Part shown: positions 44,301-53,300 of the stretch, in pieces
Numbering within the stretch: position 1 is the first letter of the stretch
Layout of the letters: each line of letters opens with the position of its first letter
Source of the DNA: Gibbula magus
Taxonomy: Eukaryota > Mollusca > Gastropoda > Trochida > Trochidae
Direction of reading: 5' to 3'
Length of the DNA stretch: 64,000 bases
NCBI GenBank assembly: GCA_936450465.1
Contig: OW388300.1
Location: forward strand, 42,006,358-42,070,357
Notes under the pieces: model-generated
The model's input: only the letters and a program-made list of their open reading frames with translations
Databases searched by the model: none
Told to the model about the DNA's origin: nothing
Position numbers and translations under genes: made by a program

Positions 44301-47300
44301 CTTTCTAGTATACAAAAGTACAAATTGTTGCCATGGAAACAGAAAAAATAAAGGGTACACCTTCATGATATTGAGAGGCAGTATACCAAATTTGGTTAGG
44401 ATTGGCCTAGTAGTTTTAGAGGTCTGCTCCGTTAACAAACTCTACTCATCAAATTGACAAAGTCAAAATTGTTATCATGGAAACAACAAAAAAACGAAAA
44501 AATTCCAAAAAGTTTAAAGGGCATATCTATATTTGTGAAGATTATTGGTTAAGTAGTTTTCCAGTACTGACAGACGGACAAACGGGCAGACGAACGAACA
44601 CACAGCCGGAACCAACGACTAATTCCCTTCCGCATTATATGCCGTGGGGATAAACATTGATATATGTGATGTTTTTCGGTGTGGAAGACAGAAAAGGACC
44701 TCTCCCCCATGCTTATCGTCGAAAGAGAACCCTTAAACCTCACATATCCAATAGCCAAATATATGATAATTACTTGATAAATTAATTATTTAATAAATAA
44801 TTAATTGATAAAAATCTACCAACAGCCTTATACATGGATAAAAATCGAAATGCACGTCCCATTTATACGCACAAATTTAATTGACCTATTAAACATTACC
44901 AACCCAAATCTGTAGTTTTGTCTGTTATAGATAGGTTTCAAGTCGTTTGACTAATCAACGACAGCCAACTGCGGGACATTTTGTCCGGTTTTTGATACAA
45001 AAATCTCGAGTTTCATTGTCATACTGAATGAACTAACATTAAAATGGTAATTCTCAGCAACAGCCACCCCTTCTCGATAAAATAGCACTACATAACGTTT
45101 AACACAAAATGAGTGCAACAACAAACTAAATTTCCATTTAATGTAGTGTACAGTTATACAGGCAGTGGTCCCATTGTATCTGAAGGGCTGGGGTTGATCT
45201 GAACACTTACAACTTTTTAAAAACATTTTGAAGTGAACAGACGTACAGGTTGAGGCTGTACAATGAACGTGTACCACGCAGTATGTACGATTAAGTGTTT
45301 TTTTCCTTCATATTCCGACAGACTGCAGTCGTAAGTACAAGCTTCAAATATTCGACCCGACGAAAGGCAAATCTCGGAGAAAGAAACATCCAAAGGTTGA
45401 TCCCATGTGCCTTCTACTTATGCATGGACGGATCTCGTGGGACAAGGCAAGATATTCCTGTAGAAGGGTTAAAGGCGACCTGGTTGTTGCAAGCACTCAA
45501 ATGAGCTTTAAAGTGGTCAAACAATACATGAAATATAGTACAGGTACGTATCGCAATGTTCCTCTTGGTTATTCCTTGGGTGTTCCTTCCGGCGAAAATA
45601 CTCTACTCAGAGCACAGGCGGCATACCCTAAATATACATATACGTATACTAACCTACCTAAATATACATACACGTATACTAACCTACCTAAATATACATA
45701 CACGTATACTAACCTACCTAAATATACATACACGTATACTAACCTACCTAAATATATATACACGTATACTAACCTACCTAAATATACATACACGTATACT
45801 AACCTACCTAAATATACATACACGTATACTAACCTACCTAAATATACATACACGTATACTAACCTACCTAAATATACATACACGTATACTAACCTACCTA
45901 AATATACATACACGTATACTAACCTACCTAAATATACATACACGTATACTAACCTACCTAAATATACATACACGTATACTAACCTACCTAAATATACATA
46001 CACGTATACTAACCTACCTAAATATACATACACGTATACTAACCTACCTAAATATATATACACGTATACTAACCTGTCTAAATATACATACCCGTATACT
46101 AACCTACCTAAATATACATACACGTATACTAACCTGTCTAAATATACATACCCGTATACTAACCTACCTAAATATACATACACGTATACTAACCTGTCTA
46201 AATATACATACCCGTATACTAACCTACCTAAATATACATACACGTATACTAACCTACCTAAATATACATACACGTATACTAACCTACGTAAATATACATA
46301 CACGTATACTAACCTGTCTAAATATACATACCCGTATACTAACCTACCTAAATATACATACACGTATACTAACCTGTCTAAATATACATACCCGTATACT
46401 AACCTACCTAAATATACATACACGTATACTAACCTACCTAAATATACATACACGTATACTAACCTACCTAAATATACATACCCGTATACTAACCTACCTA
46501 AATATATATACACGTATACTAACCTACCTAAATATACATACACGTATACTAACCTACCTAAATATACATACACGTATACTAACCTGTCTAAATATACATA
46601 CCCGTATACTAACCTACCTAAATATACATACACGTATACTAACCTACCTAAATATACATACACGTATACTAACCTACCTAAATATACATACACGTATACT
46701 AACCTACCTAAATATACATACACGTATACTAACCTACCTAAATATACATACACGTATACTAACCTACCTAAATATACATACACGTATACTAACCTACCTA
46801 AATATACATACACGTATACTCACCTACCTAAATATACATACACGTATACTAACCTACCTAAATATACATACACGTATACTAACCTACCTAAATATACATA
46901 CACGTATACTAACCTACCTAAATATACATACATGTATACTAACCTACCTAAATATACATACACGTATACTAACCTACCTAAATATACATACACGTATACT
47001 CACCTACCTAAATATACATACACGTATACTAACCTACCTAAATATACATACACGTATACTCACCTACCTAAATATACATACACGTATACTCACCTACCTA
47101 AATATACATATACACGTATACTAACCTACCTAAATATACATACACGTATACTAACCTACCTAAATATACATACACGTATACTCATCTACCTAAATATACA
47201 TACACGTATACTAACCTACCTAAATATACATACACGTATACTAACCTGACTAAATATACATACACGTATACTAACCTACCTAAATATACATACACGTATA

Positions 47301-50300: not shown

Positions 50301-53300
50301 GTATACTCACCTACCTAAATATACATACACGTATACTCACCTACCTAAATATACATACACGTATACTAACCTACCTAAATATACATACACGTATACTAAC
50401 CTGTCTAAATATACATACACGTATACTAACCTACCTAAATATACATACACGTATACTAACCTACCTAAATATACATACACGTATACTAACCTACCTAAAT
50501 ATACATACCCGTATACTAACCTACCTAAATATATATACACGTATACTAACCTACCTAAATATATATACACGTATACTAACCTACCTAAATATACATACAC
50601 GTATACTAACCTACCTAAATATACATACACGTATACTAACCTACCTAAATATACATACCCGTATACTAACCTACCTAAATATACATACACGTATACTAAC
50701 CTACCTAAATATACATACACGTATACTAACCTACCTAAATATACATACCCGTATACTAACCTACCTAAATATACATACACGTATACTAACCTACCTAAAT
50801 ATACATACACGTATACTCACCTACCTAAATATACATACACGTATACTAACCTACCTAAATATACATACACGTATACTCACCTACCTAAATATACATACCC
50901 GTATACTAACCTACCTAAATATACATACACGTATACTCACCTACCTAAATATACATACACGTATACTAACCTACCTAAATATACATACACGTATACTCAC
51001 CTACCTAAATATACATACACGTATACTAACCTACCTAAATATACATACACGTATACTAACCTACCTAAATATACATACACGTATACTAACCTACCTAAAT
51101 ATACATACACGTATACTCACCTACCTAAATATACATACACGTATACTAACCTACCTAAATATACATACACGTATACTAACCTGACTAAATATACATACAC
51201 GTATACTAACCTACCTAAATATACATACACGTATACTAACCTACCTAAATATATATACACGTATACTAACCTACCTAAATATACATACACGTATACTAAC
51301 CTACCTAAATATACATACCCGTATACTAACCTACCTAAATATACATACACGTATACTAACCTACCTAAATATACATACACATATACTAACCTACCTAAAT
51401 ATACATACCCGTATACTAACCTACCTAAATATACATACCCGTATACTAACCTACCTAAATATACATACACGTATACTAACCTACCTAAATATACATACCC
51501 GTATACTAACCTACCTAAATATACATACCCGTATACTAACCTACCTAAATATACATACCCGTATACTAACCTACCTAAATATACATACACGTATACTAAC
51601 CTACCTAAATATACATACACGTATACTAACCTACCTAAATATACATACACGTATACTAACCTACCTAAATATACATACACGTATACTAACCTACCTAAAT
51701 ATACATACACGTATACTAACCTACCTAAATATACATACCTGTATACTAACCTACCTAAATATACATACCCGTATACTAACCTACCTAAATATACATACAC
51801 GTATACTAACCTACCTAAATATACATACACGTATACTAACCTACCTAAATATACATACACGTATACTAACCTACCTAAATATATATACACGTATACTAAC
51901 CTACCTAAATATACATACACGTATACTAACCTACCTAAATATACATACACGTATACTAACCTACCTAAATATACATACACGTATACTAACCTACCTAAAT
52001 ATACATACACGTATACTCACCTACCTATATATACATACACGTATACTAACCTACCTAAATATACATACACGTATACTAACCTACCTAAATATACATACCC
52101 GTATACTAACCTACCTAAATATACATACACGTATACTAACCTACCTAAATATACATACCCGTATACTAACCTACCTAAATATACATACACGTATACTAAC
52201 CTACCTAAATATACATACACGTATACTAACCTACCTAAATATACATACACGTATACTAACCTACCTAAATATACATACACGTATACTAACCTGTCTAAAT
52301 ATACATACACGTATACTAACCTACCTAAATATACATACACGTATACTAACCTACCTAAATATACATACACGTATACTAACCTACCTAAATATATATACAC
52401 GTATACTAACCTACCTAAATATACATACACGTATACTAACCTACCTAAATATACATACACGTATACTAACCTACCTAAATATACATACACGTATACTAAC
52501 CTACCTAAATATACATACACGTATACTAACCTACCTAAATATACATACACGTATACTAACCTACCTAAATATACATACCCGTATACTAACCTACCTAAAT
52601 ATACATACACGTATACTAACCTACCTAAATATACATACACGTATACTAACCTACCTAAATATACATACACGTATACTAACCTACCTAAATATACATACAC
52701 GTATACTAACCTACCTAAATATACGTACACGTATACTAACCTACCTAAATATACGTACCCGTATACTAACCTACCTAAATATACATACCCGTATACTAAC
52801 CTACCTAAATATACATACACGTATACTAACCTACCTAAATATATATACACGTATACTAACCTGTCTAAATATACATACACGTATACTAACCTACCTAAAT
52901 ATGCATACACGTATACTAACCTACCTAAATATATATACACGTATACTAACCTACCTAAATAACGTAAAAAGAAGCTAAGACACTGCGTCATATTGGATCC
53001 TGCCATACGACCAGATATGAACAGTCTACAAATATTATAAAACGCATTTGAGCCAGCAACTAAGTTTAATCATGTTCGGTCCAATATGGCGGACAGCGTC
53101 TTACCTTCTGTATATGCTACATAGGTAGGTAGGTATACGTATATGTATTTTTAGGGTCTGGCGTTTATGATTCGTACCTTCGTTTCATCTGAAGCTCGAC
53201 CTGACAATGTTATGAACTACCTTGTTTGGCGGTGTCCTTTACGTAAGCCAATAAGATAGTCCATTATATCATCAGGCCTAGTCGCAAATGAATTATTGCA

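Follow-up and report, generated by a model that had tools for sequence, protein, structure and literature searches.

A minisatellite of 244 units lies within one arm of a palindromic transposon, where it fills the place of a single 30-bp arm segment that the partner arm still carries once. The array most probably arose in that arm (we put the probability at about 85%): once the element was in place, one 30-bp stretch would have been duplicated in tandem, and repeated unequal exchange or slippage would then have enlarged the array. Growth within one arm, with the partner arm left in single copy, had been proposed in a first-pass annotation of the same DNA, and the placement of the array agrees with this; the single-copy origin also proposed there is borne out by the first unit of the array, which is the one closest to the single-copy state. 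The beginnings of satellite-like arrays are usually invisible because their single-copy source has been lost. The window (the whole stretch of DNA analysed, 64 kb in length) retains the source segment, its unexpanded partner within one and the same element, a relative without expansion and, in the outermost unit, the ancestral base, which makes it possible to read, and to test, the succession of events.

Results

The array and its units

Tandem Repeats Finder reports one array, at 45627-52961, with a period of 30, 244.3 copies and 96% matches. Read in register with the element that surrounds it, the array consists of 244 full units of ~30 bp at 45630-52956, or ~7.3 kb, a length known from one assembly and one haplotype; this reproduces the unit count of the first-pass annotation. 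By length, the units divide into 240 of 30 bp, two of 32 bp, one of 29 bp and one of 34 bp. The consensus unit is AAATATACATACACGTATACTAACCTACCT, to which 154 of the 240 30-bp units are identical. Mean pairwise identity is 97.0% among these 240 units (the four odd-length units being excluded), and the whole array holds 122 changes in 7,320 bases if each odd-length unit is counted as one change. Tandem units within the range of ~10-100 bp, together with high internal identity, mark the array as a minisatellite and putative VNTR.

The simplest reading of the array is as a selectively near-neutral minisatellite, and we propose no host function for it. A coding repeat protein was considered and rejected, as the long open frames that cross the array do so in several frames and on both strands, a pattern to be anticipated when a 30-bp unit contains few stops. 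We also rejected an array of structured RNA or DNA, in that pieces of the array fold no better than shuffles (z -0.46 and -1.37 for 60-nt pieces, -1.71 for the first unit and 0.62 for 150 nt).

Table 1. Positions within the window of the array, the element that bears it and its unexpanded relative
Feature	Position	Strand	Remark
Target-site duplication GCCCGACA of the relative, left copy	17561..17568	+	
Intact unexpanded relative, 273 bp, nearly perfect palindrome	17569..17841	+	
Single-copy counterpart of the unit, relative's left arm	17586..17615	+	
Single-copy counterpart of the unit, relative's right (orthologous) arm	17795..17824	-	
Target-site duplication GCCCGACA of the relative, right copy	17842..17849	+	
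Whole array-bearing palindromic element	45613..53169	-	orientation relative to the 17569-17841 copy; end-to-end alignment
Outer end of expanded arm, CACAGGCGGCATACCCT, preceding the array	45613..45629	+	
First array unit	45630..45659	+	sole 30-bp unit of 240 with ancestral T at position 12
Array units 2 to 244	45660..52956	+	
Seven-unit block with 32-bp unit, first occurrence, units 45-51	46950..47161	+	
Units 55-94, 3 differences from consensus over 40 units	47252..48454	+	coordinates worked out from unit lengths
Seven-unit block with 32-bp unit, second occurrence, units 149-155	50075..50286	+	
AAATA	52957..52961	+	follows last array unit; matches unit start; other three arms read ATGTA
Inner part of expanded arm and central loop	52957..53093	+	inner boundary approximate
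Partner arm, 76 nt compared	53094..53169	-	
Partner-arm single-copy counterpart of the array unit	53123..53152	-	27/30 vs first unit

The element around the array

Two ends of one element bracket the array, as had been claimed: CACAGGCGGCATACCC stands at 45613, and CATAAACGCCAGACCC stands in reverse at 53169. By terminal inverted repeats, small size (273 bp in the relative) and the lack of coding capacity, the family fits the description of MITEs, or short palindromic non-autonomous DNA transposons. It has two copies in the window, and a profile of the unexpanded relative matches the body of the array element with an E-value of 1.3e-33. With only the first of the array units retained, the element measures 260 bp and aligns with the relative from end to end: in reverse orientation, 208 of 259 aligned positions are identical with 15 gap positions, compared with 205 of 248 and 37 gap positions in forward orientation. 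The orientation is decided by the loop, for which the alignment score is 42 in reverse and 14 forward, the maxima in 500 shuffles being 26 and 31, respectively. The array element is thus reverse to the relative, and it is therefore the right arm of the latter (17731-17841) that matches the expanded arm in position, and not the left arm with which it had been compared at first.

The relative has arms of 111 nt that are 98% alike (differing at 2 of 111 sites, or 1.8%) with 51 nt between them, folds as a single near-perfect hairpin (-137.9 kcal/mol, z -29.6) and is flanked by the perfect 8-bp duplication claimed for it, GCCCGACA being exact on both sides. In the array element, 16 of 76 sites are different between the two arms (21%, K2P 0.25), and both transposon ends are retained. 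Judged by arm difference (21% against 1.8%), the array element is old compared with the relative. No target-site duplication is visible directly beside it, the flanks ACTCAGAG and ATTCGTAC agreeing by eye at 4 of 8 positions, and a remaining duplication at other ends was rejected as no shifted-end pair agrees at 7 or more of 8. What follows the array within the element (52957-53169) folds no better than chance (z -0.96). We predict that the expanded element is now immobile.

The element had been called hAT-like, which is at most a putative assignment. The 8-bp duplication, seen at the relative only, fits hAT but is a non-exclusive trait, since P elements, like hAT, have target duplications of ~8 bp (PMC3706591), and Tetris, with duplications of 8-10 bp, has been assigned to Mutator (PMC4079207).

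Register and kinship of the unit

The array unit corresponds to arm positions 18-47 and starts 17 bp inside the element's end. Against the relative's left arm, the consensus unit matches at 24 of 30 positions and against the right arm, which is the appropriate comparison, at 23 of 30, the two arms of the relative differing by one base within the unit. For the first array unit and the partner arm, the match is 27 of 30; this value and that for the left arm are those given in the first-pass annotation. The match is better than expected by chance: when the monomer was shuffled by dinucleotides 20,000 times, 22 shuffles reached the real value of at least 23 of 30 on the relative's 76-nt right arm in any register. 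Between the element's own arms, the unit is conserved at 27 of 30 positions and the rest of the arm at 33 of 46 (Fisher p 0.084).

Arm sequence resumes directly past the last unit, as had been noted, and continues in register. Both junctions of the array are in register, and no arm bases have been lost or added apart from the AAATA/ATGTA difference. The monomer is homologous to part of the inverted repeat, and the array lies at that very place in the arm, between the two ends of the element, as in satellite-like arrays derived from transposon inverted repeats of the Tetris TIR-220 kind. Exactly one unit is present in each of the three unexpanded arms of the window, namely the partner arm and the relative's two arms, and it is on these three arms, with one relative, that the single-copy state of the family is based.

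We compared the four 76-nt arms as a quartet. Of the aligned positions, 55 do not vary, and changes confined to a single arm number 9 for the array arm, 7 for the partner arm and 1 for an arm of the relative. Four columns join the array arm with the partner arm, three of them within the unit (positions 10, 11 and 20), and none joins the array arm with the relative. As far as such shared columns can tell, the quartet shows that the array belongs with its own element rather than with that one relative, and it is silent on the family as a whole.

The edge of the array adds to this picture. Position 12 is T in both relative arms and in the partner arm, and C in the consensus unit; among the 240 30-bp units, T is found once, in the first and outermost. 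Two 32-bp units also allow a reading with T at position 12 and 2 inserted bases; counted in this way, 3 of 244 units have T, and the argument from the edge is weaker. The array's changes at positions 21 and 22 are already found in the first unit and therefore predate the first duplication, which the change at position 12 followed. At present, CCTAAATA stands at both edges of the array (45627 and 52954), compared with only CCTA at the inner edge in the other arms. The inner AAATA may be a change that aided the first duplication, or it may reflect later overwriting by the array.

Probable homogenisation and turnover

Marks of turnover are visible along the array. Units 55-94 hold 3 variants in 1,200 bases, a value reached by 2 of 5000 shuffles, whose lowest 40-unit window averages 11, and units 77-99 are 23 identical copies of the consensus, a run that 5 of 5000 shuffles reach. 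A seven-unit block occurs twice, at a distance of 104 units, and a block of this kind arises in 7 of 300 shuffles. Two unit types alternate near the left end, the two-unit period (17/88) being barely above the shuffles' 95% level. The units of the array are 97% alike and the arms of the element 21% different, which argues that the array has turned over since insertion. On these comparisons it was probably homogenised after insertion, and the turnover would have proceeded by unequal exchange, slippage or conversion.

Sequence surroundings

Judged by content, the DNA is that of a eukaryote. An exon-like stretch (45318-45551) ends shortly before the array element. It has a weak Lectin_C match below Pfam's curated cut-off (17.2 against 22.6 bits, E 0.0086) and no homologue in a protein search; that the array element lies within an intron is a lead only.

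Several other repeats were observed in the window. An inverted pair of ~360 nt (14881-15239 and 16821-17171, 87% alike), each member containing tandem copies of an 18-bp unit, either TTTTTCCAATGGAATTTT or its reverse, is possibly a second inverted element with tandem repeats in both arms. An 860-bp sequence is present in two inverted copies with 94.8% identity (28250-29089 and 37905-38767), and Tandem Repeats Finder reports an 87-bp duplication at 38506-38690, inside the latter. A dispersed family of ~300-370 bp (1665-1957, 2958-3333, 24773-25092, 26686-27039, 42028-42403 and 59888-60032) has inverted ends in at least one copy (24767-25098), and an inverted-repeat element with arms of 114 nt (89%) has a second copy at 87% (27645-28030 and 63380-63785). 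A further dispersed repeat contains tRNA-like stretches (9342-9398, 58944-59000, 17922-18235 and 16534-16649), two of which pass the Rfam tRNA gathering score and in none of which ARAGORN calls a gene; it is probably a tRNA-derived SINE. Tandem repeats are also found at 57690-58571 (145 bp, ~5 copies, 86% matches) and at 27260-27525 (a 90-bp unit in 3 copies, 97%), the latter inside a 149-codon open frame on the + strand.

Discussion

Proposed order of events

In the order that we infer, the element would have inserted and then acquired, in the arm that was to expand, the two changes at positions 21-22 that are present in the first unit. The first tandem duplication would have followed, possibly bounded by short direct repeats (the relative has CCTA and the array edges now have CCTAAATA), after which an inner unit would have undergone the T-to-C change at position 12. 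This inner type would then have spread along the rest of the array, and units 55-94 would record at least one local burst at a late stage. Hypothetically, the first duplication could have been seeded by replication stalled at hairpin-forming arms. Neither the array nor 52957-53169 is strongly hairpin-forming, and therefore hairpins would at most have seeded growth and not sustained it.

It is conceivable, if a long shot, that hairpin MITE arms seed minisatellites with a fixed polarity, such that the fork-stalling arm duplicates the segment between direct repeats and alone runs away. Were this true, the partner arm would be a dated single-copy record and the genome would hold elements with 1, 2, 5 and 50 or more units, in the same arm and with the same breakpoint.

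Alternative explanations

Another way to arrive at one long and one single-unit arm is for tandem arm repeats to be ancestral to the family, with the relative and the partner arm contracted to one unit and the array grown further here. In its favour, published foldback-type elements (Tetris and the Galileo subfamilies) vary in arm repeat number, but we consider this explanation unlikely given that 3 of 3 unexpanded arms in the window are single-unit and that the relative's arms are 98% alike. It is very improbable that the array is a genomic satellite which existed elsewhere and entered the element by capture or insertion. For Xenopus miDNA4, the reported model is the capture of a tandem repeat that was already there (PMC12628747); here, however, the unit is homologous to the arm segment and both junctions are in register, save for AAATA/ATGTA, and capture would not put an array precisely over its own homologous segment.

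The array may also be real and its length a product of assembly, through copies collapsed or inflated, since 7.3 kb of nearly identical 30-bp units is difficult to assemble and units 77-99 are identical. Variant units, odd-length units and repeated blocks nevertheless serve as landmarks through most of the array, and although they do not fix the exact number, we regard a length of this origin as improbable. More doubtful still is a role in transposition, in which the arm segment would be a putative transposase-binding site whose amplification was selected for, or now titrates transposase. The unit begins 17 bp inside the element's end, and secondary transposase-binding sites have been proposed for arm repeats, and reported for those of Galileo, but only one arm is amplified here, in a family without a known transposase. 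Duplication of a single arm segment in place, followed by unequal exchange or slippage, thus remains the reading that we prefer.

Comparison with known systems

No description of the array was found in the literature searched (most subscription papers fall outside it), and words of the monomer were absent from the paper texts. Exact patterns of the monomer and arm in viral contigs, and of the arm in genome contigs, gave 0 matches, which is little informative as these collections are viral and prokaryotic. Foldback elements such as FB of Drosophila and TU of sea urchin have long inverted arms made of short tandem repeats, and in both it is a family trait that the two arms are repetitive. Likened by this general description, they share arm tandem repeats with the array element but differ from it in that both arms are repetitive.

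Other parallels have been published. In Galileo subfamily F of Drosophila mojavensis, arm repeats of ~210 bp number two or three where present, and as in the array element they occur in one or both arms, with numbers that differ between the arms of one copy, so that the arms change independently (PMC3573991). Galileo F belongs to the P superfamily by its transposase, and its ~210-bp unit and 2-3 copies contrast with the 244 copies here (PMC3573991). In Xenopus, Xstir and miDNA4 are likewise MITEs linked to satellites, either bearing tandem repeats or having given rise to arrays from their internal or arm sequence. The origin of Xstir is ascribed to hybrid structures formed by adjacent elements and that of miDNA4 to capture of a repeat, whereas the source here would be one arm of one element (PMC12628747, PMC9659126). 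Further MITE-linked satellites are listed in reviews (PMC12628747, PMC9659126, PMC8268682).

Similar features are also those of Tetris in Drosophila virilis, a non-autonomous foldback element in which 220-bp tandem repeats of the arm grew into arrays of up to 66 copies, and whose authors derive the repeat from a duplicated piece of the arm (PMC4079207). The array element resembles Tetris TIR-220 in being a non-autonomous foldback-type element with arm-derived tandem repeats and a long homogeneous array, the long TIR-220 arrays being more homogeneous (94%) than the short (87%) (PMC4079207). In Tetris, the unit is ~220 bp, repeats are a regular part of the arms, and there are many arrays, enriched in beta-heterochromatin, with duplications of 8-10 bp (PMC4079207); the array described here has a 30-bp unit and is confined to one locus and one arm, with a partner arm and a relative in single copy. 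The first-pass annotation's view that a traceable origin of this sort is rarely visible was therefore overstated, arm repeats as a source of satellites having been published for Tetris and listed for Xstir (PMC9659126).

The array adds a 30-bp, single-arm case to the published elements with arm repeats, and the case would gain in importance if early stages of this expansion were seen in other copies. It is a clear example of a published kind rather than a new kind, distinguished by its short unit and by the 244 to 1 ratio between its arms.
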